DNA of 64,000 bases from Peptoniphilus sp. BV3C26 (GTDB taxonomy: Bacteria; Bacillota; Clostridia; Tissierellales; Peptoniphilaceae). The translations under genes and the position numbers were made by a program. Positions 4,603 through 39,002 of the stretch are shown here, piece after piece (within the stretch, counting starts at the first letter, position 1; every line of letters starts with the position of its first letter). Under the pieces are notes generated by a model, which saw only the letters and a program-made list of their open reading frames with translations, had not been told where the DNA came from and made no database searches. The stretch is from positions 1 to 64,000 of the forward strand of contig NZ_AWXB01000039.1 in the NCBI RefSeq assembly GCF_000478985.1. Reading direction: 5' to 3'.

Positions 4603-5664
4603 ATGGAAAAGAAAAAAGTAGTCCTTGGAATGAGCGGCGGAGTTGATTCTTCAGTCTCTGCTTATCTTCTAAAAGAAGAAGGCTATGATGTAATCGGAGT
4701 CTTCATGAAAAATTGGGACGAAAATGATGCTGAATGCACTGCTACTGATGATTATTTAGACGTTATAAAAGTTTCGCAGGAACTGGGAATCAAGCAGTAC
4801 ACAGTGAATTTTGAAAAAGAGTACTGGGATAAAGTTTTTTCTTATTTTTTAGAAGAATATAAAAAAGGAAGAACCCCTAACCCCGATGTTATGTGCAACA
4901 CTCAAATAAAATTTAAAGCTTTTCTTGACTTTGCTATGAAGTTTGATGCAGACTATATAGCTATGGGACATTATGCAAGAACCAAGACTGAAAACGGAAG
5001 AACCTATCTTTTAAGAGGCCTTGATAAAAATAAAGACCAGAGCTATTTTTTAAGCAGAGTAAATGAGGAAGCCTTAAAGAAAACTATTTTCCCTATTGGA
5101 AATTTAGAAAAAAATAAAGTTAGAGAAATTGCAGAAAAATTAAATTTGTCCACAGCTAAGAAAAAAGATTCCACTGGAGTTTGTTTTATAGGCGAAAGAA
5201 ATTTTAATGAATTTTTAGACAAGTTTTTATTTACAAAACCCGGCGACATTGTTGATGTTGATGGAAATATAATCGGCAAACACTCAGGCCTTATTCATTA
5301 CACAATAGGTCAAAGAAAAGGAATCGGCATAGGCGGTGTTGGAAGCGGAGAACCTTTTTTTGTTTGTGATAAGGATTTAAAGAACAACAGGCTTATAGTA
5401 GCTCAGGGAGTTAAAAATCCTCTTCTTTACAAAGATGAGTTTACTGTTGAAGATCCCTTTTTCATAACTGAAAAACCGGACTTTCCCTTTAAATGCACTG
5501 GGAAAATTCGTTATAGGGCACCTGATGAAGAAATGACCATCTATAAGGACGGTCAAGATTTAAAAATTAAGTTAAAAAATCCGTTAAAAGGAATTACTCC
5601 CGGACAAGTATGTGTCTTCTACAAGGGAGAAGTTTGTCTTGGATCGGGTATAATAAAAAATTAG
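4603..5664 (+). CDS. mnmA: tRNA 2-thiouridine(34) synthase MnmA
   Basis: MnmA adenylates and thiolates U34 of tRNA-Lys, -Glu and -Gln. The 353-residue protein has the PP-loop [15 protein letters not shown], the tRNA-contact [16 protein letters not shown] with the first catalytic Cys, the second Cys in [17 protein letters not shown], and [14 protein letters not shown]. The ATG at 4603 follows TTAGGTGATAAA; ten extra in-frame codons upstream overlap a TATAAT at 4576-4581 that is probably its -10 box. It lies 50 bases after degV and 9 bases before rplY. Confidence 0.95.
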
Positions 5665-5673
5665 GAGGATATT

Positions 5674-6306
5674 ATGAAATTAAATTTTACAAAAAGAGAG
5701 GCCTTTGGTAAAAATAAGGTCGATAAACTTAGAGCACAAGGTCTTGTCCCTGGAGTTGCATACTCAAAGGGAGAAGAAGCAATTCACGTATATGCAGTAG
5801 AAAAAGATTTAGTAAAAGCATATCAAAATGCAGGTCTTTCAAACATTATAAAGGCTGATTTTGACGGAGAAGAAAAAAATATTCTTTTTAAAGACGTTCA
5901 AAAACATCCCTTTAAAAATCAAATTATGCACTATGATATTTATCTAATAGATATGAATCAAAAAATCAAAGTTGAAATTCCTGTTGTTCTTGAAGGCAGA
6001 GATAATGTAAAAGTTCAACCTTCAGTATTGATGCAAATACTTGATACAGTTGAAATTGAATGTTTACCTGCAGATCTTCCAAGTGAAGCTCTTGTAAAAG
6101 TTGTTGATATGCAAATTGGCGATACAATGACAGTAGAAGATCTTGACATAGCTAAAAACGAAAAAATCGAAATTCTTACAGATAGAGATGAAATTGTGGC
6201 TACTTTAAGTGCTCCTCAAGAAGAAGTTATTGAAGAAGAAACATCAGAAGCATCAGTTGAAGTTCCTACAGTTGCTGAAACTAAAGAAAAAGAAGAAGAA
6301 GAATAA
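5674..6306 (+). CDS. rplY: 50S ribosomal protein L25 (Ctc type)
   Basis: L25/Ctc binds 5S rRNA; the long form with a C-terminal domain is the general stress protein Ctc type. Features are the N-terminal RxxxGKNKVDKLRAQGLVPG region, the 5S-binding part FKDVQKHPFKNQIMHYDIYL, and the beta domain with VEIECLPADLPSEALVKVVD. The final 25 residues are almost all acidic. Length is 210 residues. AGGAGGATATT precedes the ATG. It shares a transcript with mnmA and ends at a terminator. Confidence 0.93.
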   Translation: MKLNFTKREAFGKNKVDKLRAQGLVPGVAYSKGEEAIHVYAVEKDLVKAYQNAGLSNIIKADFDGEEKNILFKDVQKHPFKNQIMHYDIYLIDMNQKIKVEIPVVLEGRDNVKVQPSVLMQILDTVEIECLPADLPSEALVKVVDMQIGDTMTVEDLDIAKNEKIEILTDRDEIVATLSAPQEEVIEEETSEASVEVPTVAETKEKEEEE

Positions 6307-6313
6307 CAAAGTT

Positions 6314-6343
6314 AAAGCCGTCTTTTTTAAGGCGGTTTTTTTA
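6314..6343 (+). terminator. Intrinsic terminator after rplY
   Basis: Arm 6314-6322 pairs with 6331-6339 (9 bp including two G-U pairs) around an 8-base loop, followed by a T-rich tract. Confidence 0.8.
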
Positions 6344-6357
6344 TTTTCCCATCTTTC

Positions 6358-6402
6358 TTGTTTAAGAAACCATAGACTTATATAATATTAATAAAATAAG
6401 TC
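6358..6402 (+). promoter_or_regulatory. Promoter of the restriction endonuclease gene with 28-bp element
   Basis: TTGTTT (6358-6363), 17-base spacer, TATAAT (6381-6386). A 28-bp element at 6375-6402 begins GACTTAT and ends ATAAGTC (an inverted repeat) and covers the -10 box. A similar element with matching ends and identical length covers the promoter of the methyltransferase gene at 8291-8318. That suggests a shared repressor site; the binding protein is unknown. Confidence 0.55.
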
Positions 6403-6425
6403 AAAATTTTTAAGGAGGATTAAAG

Positions 6426-7016
6426 ATGAATTATTCAATGAATAATAAAGATATTAGCCTGTATAATGATAAGAGTCCCTATTCTTTTCCCAAATACACA
6501 TCTCAATTAATTAACTGGGCTAATCAAAATGCAAAGGGAACCCGTCCAAATGTTGTAGGTCAAATGTCCAATCTCTTTTTGGAATTTTTAGAATCCGGCG
6601 ATGAAAAGACCATAGAAGGCTGGAAGTCTTGGTATGAAAATCTAAATCCCAATGCCCGCAAAGAAGCAAGTGAAAAAATATGGCTGCAGATAAACAATCT
6701 TCGCAGTGCCATTGATCTTATTGATAAAGCCATGGTAGAAGACTGGGTTGAAGATCTTCTTATCTACAAAACATTTAACGGACTTTATTTTCAAAAAGTA
6801 ATCTTGGCTTTTCTTGCAGAAAAGAAAAACACTTCCTATCGTTTGGCAAATCCTCAAGAAGAAAGCCAAGGTATAGACGGATATGTTGGAAACACCCCCT
6901 ATTCTGTAAAACCCTTTAGCTATAAAACTATGGGCCGTCTTTCTGAAGTAATAGATGTGAAAATGATCTATTACAACAAGACAAAAACAGGTATAGAAAT
7001 AGAAGTGGAAGATTAA
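6426..7016 (+). CDS. MjaI-family type II restriction endonuclease (predicted target CTAG)
   Basis: This 196-residue protein carries the segment typical of the MjaI restriction enzyme family near residues 24-52 (YTSQLINWANQNAKGTRP, then NVVGQMSNLFLEF). A possible PD-(D/E)xK-like catalytic site is D151 followed by SVK at 160-162. MjaI cleaves CTAG; I infer the same target from family resemblance and from the m4C-type methyltransferase encoded convergently at 7182-8222. The start has TAAGGAGGATTAAAG ahead of the ATG. The gene is compact, has no accessory domain, and ends before a shared bidirectional terminator. The family call is from memory of its motifs and the specificity is inference. Confidence 0.75.
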   Translation: MNYSMNNKDISLYNDKSPYSFPKYTSQLINWANQNAKGTRPNVVGQMSNLFLEFLESGDEKTIEGWKSWYENLNPNARKEASEKIWLQINNLRSAIDLIDKAMVEDWVEDLLIYKTFNGLYFQKVILAFLAEKKNTSYRLANPQEESQGIDGYVGNTPYSVKPFSYKTMGRLSEVIDVKMIYYNKTKTGIEIEVED

Positions 7017-7125
7017 AAACACTTTGACTTTTCTATGTAAAGCCAAATTTTATTTATATAGGCCTAATTTAAGGAAATTTCCTGGTCAAAATAAATTTGA
7101 TTTTATAAAATTTATAAAAAATCAC

Positions 7126-7171
7126 AAAAATTAGCGGACAAAAGCAAAATAGCTCTTATCCGCTAATTTTT
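7126..7171. terminator. Bidirectional terminator between restriction and modification genes
   Basis: A perfect 13-bp stem pairs 7126-7138 with 7159-7171 around a 20-base loop, with A/T runs on both sides. It can stop transcripts from both convergent genes. Confidence 0.85.
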
Positions 7172-7181
7172 ATATAAATAA

Positions 7182-8222
7182 TTAACTTTTATCCTTACCA
7201 TATTGGCAGAAAAATACATTTCCCTCTTTTTTAATTTCAGTTATAGGATTAATTTCAATTTTCTTTTCCTGCTTTGTTTTTACAAGAAAACCATGATGAT
7301 CATTAAGATAACATTTTTCTTTTTTTTCCTCTTTTAAAGAATCAATAAAATTTAAATGTCTTTTAATTCTAGTATCAATAATTTGATTTAATTCATCAAG
7401 GCTCCTATCCATATTATTTAAAGCCATATCTGCAATAGCTTCGTCAATCTCAACTCCAATACTGTTCCTATTTAAAATCATACAAGCAAGGTTAGTTGTT
7501 CCAAGGCCTGCAAAGGGATCTAAAACAGTGTCCCCCTCCACTGAATACATGTTTATCAATCGAAAGGGTATCTCCAAAGGAAAAGAAGCATTTCTATCAC
7601 GACCATTTTTTGCTGAAAGAATAGTTTGAGAAGTTCCCTTAACATCCCAAAGATCAGAAAACCAAACATTTCTCTCTTCCCAAAAAAAAGCACTTTTTTG
7701 TCTTAATAATTTTTCTTGACCCTTAAAAATTCTCTTGCCGCCCTTTCTAAAAATCAGAATATATTCATGCTCATAAGTAACATAAGCACCAGCAGGATAC
7801 ATTCCAGAGCCCATAAATTTATTAGGAGAATTGGACTGCTTTCTCCAATGAATATCGGGAAGAAGACTATAACCCATTTCAAGAAAGGTATTAATAATCT
7901 GAGTGTGATTGGAAAAAAGTTGAAAATTATCTCCTATACTTCTTGTTGCATCTCCTATATTAATGCAGACAAAACCATTCTTAGCAAGAACCCTGTCACA
8001 CTCTTCCCAAGTTTTTTTAAGGACCTTATGCATTTTAAAAAAAGCGCCCATCCCATCTTCAGATTGTAAATCCTTTTCAATTTCTGGATCCTTTTTGCTA
8101 AACATTTCATCCCACATTTTTATCATGGGATAAGGAGGCGATGTGACAATTAGATTAACTGACTCATCTGATATTTTGTCCATTTTTTTGCTATCTCCAA
8201 GAATAATTTCATGTTTTGTCAT
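7182..8222 (-). CDS. Type II DNA methyltransferase, N4-cytosine type
   Basis: The protein is a 346-residue beta-class amino-methyltransferase. The catalytic motif IV TSPPYP lies at residues 27-32, before the AdoMet motif I LDPFAGLGTTNLA near 234-246. TSPPY is typical of enzymes that make N4-methylcytosine, while DPPY is more typical of N6-methyladenine. Other conserved parts are GFVCINIGDATR and LPDIHWRKQSNSPNKFMGSG. It would methylate the site cut by the MjaI-like enzyme encoded opposite it, inferred as CTAG. There is no helix-turn-helix extension. The ATG at 8222 follows an AGGAGGAAAAGATAA region. The C-terminal 80 residues after motif I are lysine-rich and not obviously conserved. Confidence 0.88.
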   Translation of the reverse strand: MTKHEIILGDSKKMDKISDESVNLIVTSPPYPMIKMWDEMFSKKDPEIEKDLQSEDGMGAFFKMHKVLKKTWEECDRVLAKNGFVCINIGDATRSIGDNFQLFSNHTQIINTFLEMGYSLLPDIHWRKQSNSPNKFMGSGMYPAGAYVTYEHEYILIFRKGGKRIFKGQEKLLRQKSAFFWEERNVWFSDLWDVKGTSQTILSAKNGRDRNASFPLEIPFRLINMYSVEGDTVLDPFAGLGTTNLACMILNRNSIGVEIDEAIADMALNNMDRSLDELNQIIDTRIKRHLNFIDSLKEEKKEKCYLNDHHGFLVKTKQEKKIEINPITEIKKEGNVFFCQYGKDKS

Positions 8223-8290
8223 TTATCTTTTCCTCCTATTTTTAAGCTTTATTTTAAAGTAGGTAAATTTTTTAATTTATTTTTGCCTTA

Positions 8291-8324
8291 GACTAATTTT
8301 AAACTATTAATTTAAGTCTGCCAA
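8291..8324 (-). promoter_or_regulatory. Promoter of the methyltransferase gene with 28-bp element
   Basis: The minus strand reads TTGGCA (8319-8324), 17-base spacer, TAAAAT (8296-8301). The spacer and -10 box lie entirely inside a 28-bp element (8291-8318) that resembles 6375-6402: both start GACTTA, both end AAAAT(A/T)AGTC, and I count 19 identical positions of 28. Confidence 0.55.
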
Positions 8325-8339
8325 GGGATTAAGAATATA

Positions 8340-8387
8340 AGAAAATAAAAAGACCTCGACTAATATATAAATCTTAGTCGAGGTCTT
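8340..8387 (-). terminator. Terminator after the SLH protein gene
   Basis: A perfect 13-bp stem pairs 8350-8362 with 8375-8387 around a 12-base loop. On the minus strand a T-rich run follows (8340-8349). Confidence 0.88.
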
Positions 8388-8403
8388 ATAAAATTTTATT
8401 TTT

Positions 8404-11400
8404 TTACTTTAATAAACTTTTATCTTCTATAATTTTTAACCAAATTTCATCCTTTAGATTTGATTTTCTCTTAAATTCATGACTGTTTGCAGCTTCCATA
8501 AGTTCGTAATAAGCCCAGTGCTTTTTATTTAGGTCTTTGTACTTTTCCAATAGAGCTTCATTTAAATCAATATAAGCCCTATCTGGAATTCTATTAAAAA
8601 TACTGTTAAACATTATAACTGCTTCAGCTCTTGTTATATTGTTATCTGGTTTAAATGTTCCGTCGGAATATCCTACTATTCTTCCATTTCCAAAAGCCAT
8701 ATTAATTTCTTTTTCGTACTTATGGCCGATTATGTCAGGGAAATCTGATTTTGCATTATTTTTTTCATCAATGGCAGCGAAAAGTTTTGCCATTTCTCCT
8801 CTTGTTATAGGATCATTGGGTCTTATTTTATTTTGATTCCAATCTAAAAGTCCAAGTCTTATTCCTTCATTTAGAGAAGCTATATACCATTGTCCTTCTT
8901 CAACATCTTCAAAATCAGGTTTTACCTTGTTATTTGCAGAAATTCCCTTTAATCTTACTGCTATTGCCACAGCTTCTGCCCTTGTTATATTTCCTTCAGG
9001 TTTAATATTGTTATCAGGATAACCGTAAATATATTTTATATGGTTTTCATAATGATCATCATCATGATTATTATGATCTTCACTTATTATAGTGAATCTT
9101 CCTCCAATCTCCCTATCTTCTTTAGGCTTTTCAGGTTGAGGTTGAGGTTTTGGTTCAGGCTTTTCAGTTTCTTTTAAAACTATGTTGTCATCAGCCATTT
9201 TGCTTAAATCTTTTTCTTCTTTAAATTCAAGAGTTTTTAAGCCTTGAGCTAGATCTTTTCTAACCAAAGCTTTCTCTTTCGCTGTCTTTCCTAAAGAAGC
9301 ATTAGACTTATATAGAAGAATGCCAAAATCTCTTTCAAATACACCGTCATAAGCTGGACCTTTCTTTAAATCTTCATCAATAAGATCACTGTAATTTTTA
9401 TTTTTATCAACTTTTAATATTCTATATAGAGGAGTTGAATTTTCTGTCCTATATTTTATTCCCTGAGGATTTCCATCTTTATCTTCAGCTTTTTCATAAG
9501 AATTTATGGTGTTTTCTTTAAAAATATCAACGTGATATTTTCCGCCCTTGACTAAAATATTCTTATCTCTGTACTCTTCATCTCCACCGGAAAATACTTT
9601 TGCCTTGCCTACATATAAGGCTCCATCGTTTTCTAAAAATATACTACTTATAGGATCTTTTCCAAACCAACCTTTAGGTGTAGTATAAGACATAACTTGT
9701 GGTGTGAATTGACCTTGTCCGTCAATTATAACTTTACCACTTGCTGATATGGCATAGGCTTCAGAGGATCGCCCTGAGAATCCTCCACCTCTAGTTCTTG
9801 GATGCATTTTCTCCTTATAAGCTTCTATATAGGTTTGATAAAGTTTATTACCAGCTTCAATTTTACCTGCTTTTATAGTGGCATTTCCTACCATATAAAG
9901 GCCTGAACCTGCTTGCCTATTAGTTTCTTGATCTGTAAATCTACAACCTCCACCAAAAATTGTAGGTTCCGTTCCGCTTGCTTCATCACCTTCAACAACT
10001 AGGTTATTTACATTGGCAATGGCGTGACCTGACTTTGTGGAACTTCCTCCGCCATAAATTTGTGCTCCACCCTTTACAGATAGATTTTCTCCTCCGTCAA
10101 TGGCGCTTCCTGCCGTAAGTCTGTCGGCAAATAAATATCCGTTCCGAGTTATATTAGTGGATGAACCCCCCGTTATTAAAGAGTCACCTATAATTTGAAT
10201 GTCTGTAGCACCCTTTATCCCTGCTCCGGCAATTCCATTACCTTCACACCTACCTGAAGTATCACAATTAGATGGGACAGTTAATATATCTCCACCGTGG
10301 ACTTCTGAGTTTTCAATATATACACTGACTACATTTTCAAGTCCGTAGCCTGCAGATACATTTTCTTCAGCAAAGCTATTGCTGTGTTTGTATACACTTT
10401 TATTTCTCAAGTATTTTATAGGTCCATAGCCTTGAACCACTGCACCATTTACAAGTTTAACTTCACTTGCATCTTTTATACCAGAGCCAAATCTGTATAG
10501 GTCTTTTTTTGAACCATTATCACTTAATATGTTAGATATTCCTCCACCGGAAATATTAGCTCCGTCAACTAAGACTTTACCCAGAGTTCTAATACCTGCA
10601 GCCCCAACCTTAGGTGCTATTTCATTGTCGCTATACCCTTTATTAGATGTGCTTGATCCAGGTGTAGGACCTTGAATAGAGGTGTTTGCTCCGTAAACAT
10701 TTACATCAGCCTTTGAGTCTATAAGGGCTTCTGATGTATTAAAGAAGTGAAAACCGCAACCTATTGATAAAGGATCGGTTTGACCTGGCATTCCCAAATT
10801 CAATGTTCCAGTTCCCATTTCTATAACAGGTGAATGGGGAAGCTTGTACATAAAGTCTGGATCAGCTGAACCACTAGGCATAGTGTCATTAGCTCCCTTG
10901 TCTATAAAGTTTCCTCTATAGACATTTACCTTAGCGTTTCCATTAGCAAGGATAATAGGCCCATAGAAGTTAGTAAATCTTTTCCCACTGAAAAAATTTT
11001 CGGATTCTGTATTACCATTTGAGTCTATATATTTTATATTACCACCACCGGTTATGCTATTCATTTTTTCCTTATCGCTATCATTTAGACTTGGAAATTC
11101 TTTTGTGGCAAAGTCTAATTTACCTCCATCATCTTCAACTTCAATAGTACCATAGTAAAACTTTTCTCTTTTGCTCTCGTTTACAGATAAATCAACTCCG
11201 TTACCTGGAGCTATTTTATTGTATCCGGCACACTTGATATTAATATTTTTCCCTATTATTGCTCCTTGACCGTAGCCTCCTGCACCTCCTGAAATAACAG
11301 TAGATGTAGAATGATATTCATTTTTTTCTCCTGAAAGGTCTACGATTATATTTTCACCCTTTAATCCATGGCCGCCTTGGATATTATCTCCTAGGCCATT

Positions 11401-12135
11401 ACCGCCTCTTATATAAAGGCCCTGATCAACGGTATAAGGGGAAGGTTTAAAGTCTAAATTAGTTTGATCAACTTCAATATCTTTAGCAACAATGGCATCT
11501 GCTCCCCTTTCTGTTGAAGAATCTCCCCCTATAATTCTGCTGTAATATTTTAGCTTAACTGTTACAGGATACCCATATTCATTAATTTCACCAGTTTCCT
11601 CCTCACCAGTATAAGACATAAGATTTTCTATTTTTACTGAACTGTTAGGTAGATAAATAGCAGGCTTGCCATTTTGTCCCGAAAGATTCATCCTCTCAGT
11701 TAAATAAAGATTCCCTTCGCCTGAAATTACTGCTTTGTCTTCAGGTCCCTTTAGATAAAGGTGTCCCTTCAGAGTAAGAGTTTTTTCAGAAGCTATATTA
11801 AAGCTTATATTTGATATGTAAACAGCCCTTGCTCCCTCTGTTGTACCCCATCCATAAGCAGCTTGTTTTGGGTCTGATGACATAATGGTAATATTACTAT
11901 TTACATTAATTAGTCCAAGGGAAGAAAAGTCATTACCTCCTGGCTTAAATTCATTTCTGTTATAAAATTTTACAAGGTCTATAACATCTCCATTCTGTGC
12001 ATTTTCAACCATGTTTTTAAATTCGTCCATGTTTTGTGGCTCAAGAGTTGCTGCACTTACATTTTGTGGCAAAATAAAAGTTAGTGCAAAAACTGCTAAA
12101 AACATAAAAACAAATTTTACATTTCTTACTTTCAT
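8404..12135 (-). CDS. Large surface protein with three SLH domains
   Basis: The 1243-residue protein has a classical signal peptide (about 1-28, cleavage near VSA-AT). A long region rich in GG, IxGG and AxIxG patterns follows to about residue 960; it looks like a right-handed beta-helix or adhesin passenger with no recognisable active site. Then comes a proline/lysine linker (PEPKPQPQPEKPKEDREIGG), a His/Asp-rich patch (EDHNNHDDDHYENH), and three SLH repeats near 1030-1180 with ITRAEAV, ITRGEMA and ITRAEAV cores. SLH domains bind pyruvylated wall polysaccharide, so the protein is displayed on the cell wall, probably as an adhesin or array component. A 63-residue tail follows the last SLH. AGGAGGATTTT precedes the ATG. 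It is monocistronic with its own promoter and terminator. Confidence 0.92.
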   Translation of the reverse strand: MKVRNVKFVFMFLAVFALTFILPQNVSAATLEPQNMDEFKNMVENAQNGDVIDLVKFYNRNEFKPGGNDFSSLGLINVNSNITIMSSDPKQAAYGWGTTEGARAVYISNISFNIASEKTLTLKGHLYLKGPEDKAVISGEGNLYLTERMNLSGQNGKPAIYLPNSSVKIENLMSYTGEEETGEINEYGYPVTVKLKYYSRIIGGDSSTERGADAIVAKDIEVDQTNLDFKPSPYTVDQGLYIRGGNGLGDNIQGGHGLKGENIIVDLSGEKNEYHSTSTVISGGAGGYGQGAIIGKNINIKCAGYNKIAPGNGVDLSVNESKREKFYYGTIEVEDDGGKLDFATKEFPSLNDSDKEKMNSITGGGNIKYIDSNGNTESENFFSGKRFTNFYGPIILANGNAKVNVYRGNFIDKGANDTMPSGSADPDFMYKLPHSPVIEMGTGTLNLGMPGQTDPLSIGCGFHFFNTSEALIDSKADVNVYGANTSIQGPTPGSSTSNKGYSDNEIAPKVGAAGIRTLGKVLVDGANISGGGISNILSDNGSKKDLYRFGSGIKDASEVKLVNGAVVQGYGPIKYLRNKSVYKHSNSFAEENVSAGYGLENVVSVYIENSEVHGGDILTVPSNCDTSGRCEGNGIAGAGIKGATDIQIIGDSLITGGSSTNITRNGYLFADRLTAGSAIDGGENLSVKGGAQIYGGGSSTKSGHAIANVNNLVVEGDEASGTEPTIFGGGCRFTDQETNRQAGSGLYMVGNATIKAGKIEAGNKLYQTYIEAYKEKMHPRTRGGGFSGRSSEAYAISASGKVIIDGQGQFTPQVMSYTTPKGWFGKDPISSIFLENDGALYVGKAKVFSGGDEEYRDKNILVKGGKYHVDIFKENTINSYEKAEDKDGNPQGIKYRTENSTPLYRILKVDKNKNYSDLIDEDLKKGPAYDGVFERDFGILLYKSNASLGKTAKEKALVRKDLAQGLKTLEFKEEKDLSKMADDNIVLKETEKPEPKPQPQPEKPKEDREIGGRFTIISEDHNNHDDDHYENHIKYIYGYPDNNIKPEGNITRAEAVAIAVRLKGISANNKVKPDFEDVEEGQWYIASLNEGIRLGLLDWNQNKIRPNDPITRGEMAKLFAAIDEKNNAKSDFPDIIGHKYEKEINMAFGNGRIVGYSDGTFKPDNNITRAEAVIMFNSIFNRIPDRAYIDLNEALLEKYKDLNKKHWAYYELMEAANSHEFKRKSNLKDEIWLKIIEDKSLLK

Positions 12136-12174
12136 AAAATCCTCCTCATTTTTGTCTATATTGATATTAAATTT

Positions 12175-12203
12175 ATATTATCATATTAAAAATTTTTTTA
12201 CAA
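12175..12203 (-). promoter_or_regulatory. Promoter of the SLH protein gene
   Basis: The minus strand reads TTGTAA (12198-12203), 17-base spacer, TAATAT (12175-12180), about 40 bases upstream of the ATG. Confidence 0.55.
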
Positions 12204-12243
12204 AGGCAAAATAGCCATGATCTTATGCTTTTTAATTTTATTT

Positions 12244-12279
12244 TTTTAAATAAAAAACCGTAAGTTTAAACTTACGGTT
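12244..12279 (-). terminator. Terminator after ribU
   Basis: The hairpin AACCGTAAG (12256-12264) / CTTACGGTT (12271-12279) has a 6-base loop and is followed by a T-rich run on the minus strand. Confidence 0.85.
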
Positions 12280-12301
12280 CTAATTGATTTTTTAATTTTG
12301 T

Positions 12302-12907
12302 TTAGTCTTTTAGAGCAGGTCTTACGTGCTTATAGATAAAGATTGTAAATATCGCAGTTATCGTTCCTTTTACAAGGTTAAAGGGCAAAACTACATAAAA
12401 CATAATGTCTTTTAAGTCTTTAACATTTGCATTTATTTTTGAACACATGGAGATTATTGCTTCCATTGGCATTATTTTCCCATATAGGGGAAAAATAAAG
12501 AAATAGTTTGAAAGCATTGCTAAAGCTGTCATGGTTATTATTCCCAAGGCTAAAGATCCTATTGCTCCTTTAAAGGTTCTATGTTTTCTATAGAAAAGAG
12601 AGGCTGTTACTGCAAAGGCACTTGCAACGATAAAGTTTGAAAGTTCTCCTACAAGTCCTGTGTCAGATCCTGCAATAATTATTTTTAAGATATTTTTTAT
12701 TAAAGCTGTAATAACCCCATATACAGGTCCCATGGTAAAGGCTCCTATTAAAACCGGCATATCCGAAATGTCAAGCTTCATAAATGAGGGAGCTATAAAT
12801 CCTAAGGGAGTTTTTATGTTCATAAGCACAAAGGCTATTACTGAAAGAACTGCAACTCTTGTTATGTTTCTTGTTTTAAATCTGCTTCTTACTTTTACTT
12901 CGTTCAT
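12302..12907 (-). CDS. ribU: Riboflavin ECF transporter S component
   Basis: RibU is the substrate-binding membrane subunit of an energy-coupling-factor transporter and pairs with a shared EcfA-A'-T module encoded elsewhere. The 201-residue protein has a basic N-terminus (RSRFKTRNITR), multiple hydrophobic segments, and family-like stretches LDISDMPVLIGAFTMGPVYG and FNLVKGTITAIFTIFIYK. The decisive context is an FMN riboswitch in its leader, which ties the gene to riboflavin supply. AGGAGGAATAAAT precedes the ATG. It is a single-gene unit. No rib biosynthesis genes are present in this window. Confidence 0.93.
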   Translation of the reverse strand: MNEVKVRSRFKTRNITRVAVLSVIAFVLMNIKTPLGFIAPSFMKLDISDMPVLIGAFTMGPVYGVITALIKNILKIIIAGSDTGLVGELSNFIVASAFAVTASLFYRKHRTFKGAIGSLALGIITMTALAMLSNYFFIFPLYGKIMPMEAIISMCSKINANVKDLKDIMFYVVLPFNLVKGTITAIFTIFIYKHVRPALKD

Positions 12908-38922: not shown

Positions 38923-38949
38923 TTAGCACTTATTCAGTGCGAGTGCTAA
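38923..38949. promoter_or_regulatory. CIRCE operator 1
   Basis: TTAGCACTT-N9-GAGTGCTAA, one mismatch from the CIRCE consensus TTAGCACTC-N9-GAGTGCTAA. It lies between the hrcA promoter and the hrcA start, in the transcribed leader. Confidence 0.95.
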
Positions 38950-38960
38950 AGCTTATCTAT

Positions 38961-38989
38961 ATAATATACAAAGTGTTAGCACTTGTCAA
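38961..38989 (-). promoter_or_regulatory. Promoter of the hrcA-grpE-dnaK operon
   Basis: The minus strand reads TTGACA (38984-38989), 17-base spacer, TATTAT (38961-38966). CIRCE 2 covers the -35 and CIRCE 1 lies just downstream of the start. Confidence 0.88.
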
Positions 38990-39002
38990 GATTAAGTGCT
39001 AA
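38976..39002. promoter_or_regulatory. CIRCE operator 2
   Basis: TTAGCACTT-N9-AAGTGCTAA, a perfect inverted repeat with one symmetric change from consensus in each arm. It overlaps the -35 of the hrcA promoter and is 79 bases from lepB on the other side. Confidence 0.92.

Follow-up and report, generated by a model that had tools for sequence, protein, structure and literature searches.

The two promoters of an MjaI-family type II restriction-modification (R-M) pair carry the same kind of symmetric 28-bp element, an inverted repeat GACTWA-N16-TWAGTC that overlaps each predicted promoter and whose only exact copies in the genome assembly are these two. We tentatively read the elements as a lineage-specific operator, shared by the endonuclease gene (R) and the methyltransferase gene (M), for a repressor that is unlinked or has been lost, and from the sequence we put this reading slightly below an even chance. 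It and simple coincidence stand about even.

Results

The R-M locus and its promoters

In the window (the whole 64,000-nucleotide stretch of DNA analysed), a convergent type II R-M pair lies between a gene for an L25/TL5 ribosomal protein and a gene encoding S-layer homology domains (Table 1). That R and M form a real pair, as the first-pass annotation held, is borne out by profile matches to PF09568 RE_MjaI and PF01555; judged from sequence, this is an MjaI-family type II system by its endonuclease family and adjacent amino-methyltransferase. The two promoters form the outer ends of the pair and face each other across it. The predicted M promoter, TTGGCA-17-TAAAAT, is a 10/12 match and the top of the nine promoter-like sites listed by the scan, where 9.5 would be expected by chance in the same region.

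Table 1. Features of the R-M locus, with positions in the window.
Feature	Position	Strand	Sequence or basis
R promoter -35, TTGTTT, weak (3/6)	6358-6363	+	Read by eye; absent from the promoter scan list
Element 1 (R promoter), inverted repeat GACTTAT-N14-ATAAGTC	6375-6402	+	GACTTATATAATATTAATAAAATAAGTC
R promoter -10, TATAAT, of the predicted promoter	6381-6386	+	Read directly; 17-bp spacer to the -35
R, MjaI-family restriction endonuclease, 196 aa	6426-7016	+	PF09568 RE_MjaI, E 2.1e-59, whole profile
Terminator-like hairpin between convergent R and M	7126-7171	-	
M, N6/N4 DNA methyltransferase, 346 aa	7182-8222	-	PF01555, E 4.6e-45; model and fold search
Element 2 (M promoter), inverted repeat GACTTA-N16-TTAGTC	8291-8318	-	GACTTAAATTAATAGTTTAAAATTAGTC
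M promoter -10, TAAAAT, of the predicted promoter	8296-8301	-	Read directly; promoter scan
M promoter -35, TTGGCA, of the predicted promoter	8319-8324	-	Promoter scan

Two inverted repeats over the R and M promoters

Direct reading confirmed the two 28-bp elements that the first-pass annotation had described, as well as its placement of the -10 box at positions 7-12 of the R element and 18-23 of the M element. What it had missed is the symmetry. Both elements are inverted repeats of the form GACTWA-N16-TWAGTC; their four half-sites read GACTTA, GACTTA, GACTTA and GACTAA, and within each element these lie 22 bp apart, centre to centre. Element 1 spans the R -10 box and extends beyond the likely start, element 2 starts directly after the M -35 box and spans the spacer and the -10 box, and the two are offset from one another by 11 bp relative to their -10 boxes. 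Their plain identity, counted by eye, is 19/28.

The ungapped match between the R and M promoters is equalled in 7 of 300 dinucleotide shuffles, and their direct similarity gives weak evidence that the elements are related. The shared-inverted-repeat score of the two promoters is equalled in 85 of 40,344 shuffles (1/300, 5/2000 and 2/1500 in smaller runs), and a shared inverted repeat that also covers both -10 boxes in 4 of 40,344; the scores were devised after the motif had already been seen, so these numbers are generous. When 19 upstream regions of the window, all with a length of 70 bp or more, are compared pairwise (171 pairs), the R/M pair comes second on the shared-repeat score. The top-ranked pair is a single shared intergenic region beside hrcA, counted from both sides, with CIRCE-like repeats; third place falls to three tied pairs, one of which is again a shared intergenic region. 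Because the region by hrcA ranks first, the score does detect a known kind of operator. In this region CIRCE-like inverted repeats (TTAGCACT..AGTGCTAA) occur twice upstream of hrcA, at window 38924-39002. For the pair of elements at R and M, these figures suggest modest statistical support.

In the 1.93-Mb assembly GACTWA-N16-TWAGTC has exactly two sites, elements 1 and 2. Allowing one mismatch raises the total to 15, compared with 11 for a reversed control pattern, and GACTTA..TAAGTC with a free spacing of 4-24 occurs at seven sites, as against one for the control. Of the other six free-spacing sites, L069, L071 and L073 are palindromes that by eye resemble hairpins followed by a T run, L070 and L072 fall within open reading frames, and the sixth is on contig C65. 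A host regulon was rejected: the one-mismatch copies are near background, and the three inspected of 13 (L006-L008) all fall inside open reading frames. The inspected copies elsewhere are terminator-like or lie in open reading frames, and therefore no regulon is seen. Terminator function for the two elements themselves was also rejected, since by eye no T run directly follows the stem on either strand, unlike at L069, L071 and L073.

Distribution of the cassette and its relatives

An MjaI-family nuclease is present in 3 of 61 relatives, 2 of 130 genomes from the taxonomic family, 7 of 249 from the order (six with scores above the cut-off of the nuclease family), 7 of 391 drawn from the class and 6 of 398 drawn from the phylum; these five sets overlap, and the genome of the window is counted in each. 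A scan of genome contigs yielded four further loci. Fifteen loci of relatives were matched for both R and M, 13 of them convergent and two in tandem (L010, L011).

None of the 13 relatives whose promoters were tested has, between the R and M promoters (or those of controller-R and controller-M), a shared inverted repeat as strong as that in the window. Shuffles did as well as the real sequence in 54/2000 (L012) to 1472/2000 (L055) cases in a first run and in 156/1500 (L081) to 1126/1500 (L088) in a second. For the closest relative (L002/L066; R 67%, M 74%) the figures are 251/2000 and 200/1500, and a lone GACTTA stands upstream of its M. The test covered loci other than those with M and R in tandem (L010, L011, L089, L090), one with R truncated at a contig end (L087) and the fragments L017-L020, L060 and L061; for L012 and L015 the start of R was placed by guess 60 bases before the match, the R gene of L085 is divided between two frames, and that of L086 covers only part of the profile. 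The first-pass annotation had held that lack of conservation in related loci would count against its proposal, and the absence of the element from all 13 does so, although operators can turn over fast.

The viral contigs scanned contain no match to the exact elements and no relative of R. An exact half-site was found upstream of 0 of 14 viral relatives of M, and weak repeats with two mismatches and other spacings upstream of two (L024, L030). Three Methanothermobacter plasmid records carry a 48.8% identical homologue of R.

In G001, the other genome from this genus (locus L035), a homologue of the gene at window 12302-12907 comes 167 bp after the L25/TL5 gene. The matching 3.6-kb stretch of that genome has no match to R, M or the S-layer-domain gene (window 6307-12300); the pair therefore sits in a variable place.

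Controller genes and C-boxes

Several relatives carry small controller-like genes next to their R-M genes. R is preceded by a BclI/AhdI-type C gene in L081, L082 and L088, and by a weaker match (42%) in L086; one C-gene search of the relatives used the L088/L014 protein alone as its query. M in turn has a second small helix-turn-helix (HTH) gene on its 5' side in L064, L081, L082 and L087, so that L081 and L082 carry both controllers. This second controller is of the HTH_26 type (LARRxGQxPQNF) and unrelated to the BclI/AhdI-type C gene. By eye, L064 and L087 share a direct repeat, AGTTTAT-N14-A(G/A)TTTAT, over the predicted -10 box upstream of the HTH-M operon. This repeat is a candidate operator for the HTH_26-type controller. 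The remaining relatives' loci, including the closest (L066), have no match to either controller at E 1e-3.

The first-pass annotation saw no controller gene near the pair, and we likewise found none beside R or M. No HTH family is recognised in the four main open reading frames of 5674-12135 or in four others there (65-134 aa); the remaining frames of at least 25 aa in 6300-8420 are all of 58 aa or less, and in these, read by eye without a profile scan, no controller was noted. The two controller proteins have no match in window 5001-9500 at E 1e-3. In the assembly that includes the window, which is 95.8% complete in 69 contigs, the two controller families have weak matches, at E 6.6e-4 (31% identity, in a 216-aa open frame) and at E 0.047, and HTH_3 is found at 16 places, none tied to the R-M pair. 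Genes for an ArsR-type and a Crp-type regulator lie at 14.5-15.5 kb of the window, and nothing connects them with the elements. For the trans-acting repressor that the first-pass annotation had suggested as a possibility, these searches identified no candidate.

C-boxes are described as pairs of GACTTATAGTC some 4 bp apart with a consensus that begins GACTTAT (PMC4321490), and as contacted specifically at GAC and at the TATA between (PMC3758141). The relatives' C genes are preceded by stretches of this kind, such as GACTTATTGTATGTATACTTATT in L082 and ACTTATTGTATGTAGACTAATTGT in L081, and our elements resemble them in the outer arms alone. A C-box reading of the elements was rejected: a matrix built from four such stretches scores 2.2 on the R promoter (174/2000 shuffles) and -1.1 on the M promoter (734/2000), which is at chance and agrees with the earlier remark that the layout is not that of a usual C-box. 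The pattern used to search the assembly for a canonical double C-box, which is blind to the relatives' variant, returned none.

The methyltransferase and CTAG

The model of M has a mean pLDDT of 77.8, with residues 130-150 and 196-212 poor. Its nearest matches in the fold search are TTHA0409 and then CcrM, it has a C-terminal helix plus a few strands, and neither profiles, model nor fold search reveals a recognisable helix-turn-helix; on the model, M appears to be a beta-class-like methyltransferase. MjaI-type nucleases that are ~58-62% identical (L003, L055, L009, L081, L082, against window 7182-8222) pair with two very different methyltransferases, one of 346 aa and one of ~423 aa with a long C-terminal extension, at only ~35% identity. 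This suggests, at the level of sequence, that partners have been swapped.

The site of the family is presumably CTAG. The window (1-64000) holds 23 CTAG sites, fewer than the ~91 expected from trinucleotides, a scarcity that is consistent with CTAG specificity and says little beyond that, because CTAG is rare in many bacteria. Neither promoter (6307-6425 for R, 8223-8350 for M) has a CTAG site, and control of the promoters by CTAG methylation was rejected, provided that CTAG is the site. The first-pass suggestion that the methyltransferase itself coordinates the pair thus lacks support, both promoters being free of CTAG and M having no recognisable helix-turn-helix.

Discussion

From the sequence and symmetry of the elements, their overlap with both predicted promoters and the uniqueness of the exact pattern, we infer binding and repression by a protein encoded elsewhere or since lost. 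The two elements would be copies of one operator, in each of which a dimeric or tetrameric repressor would contact both GACTWA half-sites; at 22 bp, or about two helical turns, these would lie on the same face of the DNA. Once bound, the repressor could block RNA polymerase at the -10 box of R and at the spacer and -10 box of M, so that R and M would be held down together. The 11-bp offset to the -10 box, about one helical turn, would let it meet the polymerase from the same face at both promoters.

Such an operator is favoured by the shuffle figures (85/40,344, and 4/40,344 with both -10 boxes), by the rank of the R/M pair as the best of the 171 promoter pairs in the window apart from one intergenic region counted twice, by the coincidence of the only two exact genome copies with the elements, and by the controller-like genes 5' of R or M in several relatives, which indicate that the family gets regulated. 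Against it stand the 13 of 13 tested relatives without a comparable shared repeat, the lack of an adjacent regulator gene, with the two controller families matching the assembly weakly, the lack of a wider regulon, the modest and post hoc statistics, and the weaker plain similarity (7/300). It would also be odd for a dedicated unlinked regulator to have its only two exact sites at R and M and none at its own gene. Much of this speaks for coincidence, in which two AT-rich promoters happen to hold similar short palindromes with nothing bound, a serious contender at somewhat less than an even chance. Coincidence accords with the missing element in the relatives, with the failure to find a reader, with the 7/300 result and two scores chosen post hoc, and with one-mismatch sites near background (15 against 11). 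It has more difficulty with the 85 and 4 in 40,344 shuffles and the best independent promoter pair of the window, and with two exact genome sites that land on both promoters of one functional pair.

The other readings rank well below these. It is unlikely, if conceivable, that in this convergent R-M system with no controller the widely spaced palindrome GACTWA-N16-TWAGTC is read by a host regulator or by one of the system's own enzymes (an MjaI-type nuclease, or a methyltransferase lacking a helix-turn-helix), which would throttle both promoters at once and stand in for the C-type genes of several relatives. The elements are improbable as a relic or variant of a C-box, with the outer GACTTA arms left from a double box of a cassette that once had a C gene: in relatives, the BclI/AhdI-type C genes in front of R do have GACTTAT or GACTWAT stretches upstream, and the published consensus starts with GACTTAT (PMC4321490), but the matrix scores at chance, the inner arms are absent, and the assembly yields neither a canonical double box nor a convincing C homologue. 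Binding of the palindromes by M or R itself is more doubtful still. The pair encodes no other product, and methyltransferases that repress their own genes are known from other systems (PMC3874152), but the known cases described there use an N-terminal helix-turn-helix, which is not recognisable in M, and CTAG is in neither promoter. We regard as very improbable that the elements are the ends of a mobile R-M cassette, serving as its terminal inverted repeats. They do flank the pair almost exactly, and the pair is missing at this place from the other genome of the genus; that genome also lacks the neighbouring S-layer-domain gene, however, so the difference extends beyond the elements, such ends would leave both -35 boxes outside, and no flanking target duplication was seen by eye.

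Control by C proteins is better understood than the balancing of nuclease and methylase in R-M systems that lack a controller gene, for which a shared operator read by an unlinked protein, if true, would be a simple answer. Among the relatives, MjaI-type nucleases occur with a C gene before R, a different small HTH gene before M, both of these or neither, and so offer a useful set for following the gain and loss of control. Titles and abstract openings in the literature searched disclosed no report of control in an MjaI-family system, and none of an operator shared by R and M where there is no C gene, which is not proof of absence in print.

Several known systems offer parallels. R is a clear member of the MjaI R-M family, while the promoter element sets the locus apart from the family relatives tested (0/13). 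In autorepression by methyltransferases, as in Ecl18kI and others, an operator overlaps the M promoter, as the element does here; there, the methyltransferase carries an N-terminal helix-turn-helix (PMC3874152), whereas none is recognisable here. In Esp1396I-type control a single C protein acts on operators at the C/R and M promoters, and our locus resembles it in having one kind of symmetric element at the R and M promoters, with GACT/AGTC arms; the Esp1396I type has its own C gene and box arms a few bp apart (PMC3758141 and PMC4321490), unlike the present locus, where our searches found no C gene and 16 bp separate the arms. Csp231I differs in its C gene and CTAAG-n5-CTTAG boxes (PMC4824078), but as in our locus its R and M genes converge on a predicted terminator and each has a promoter of its own.
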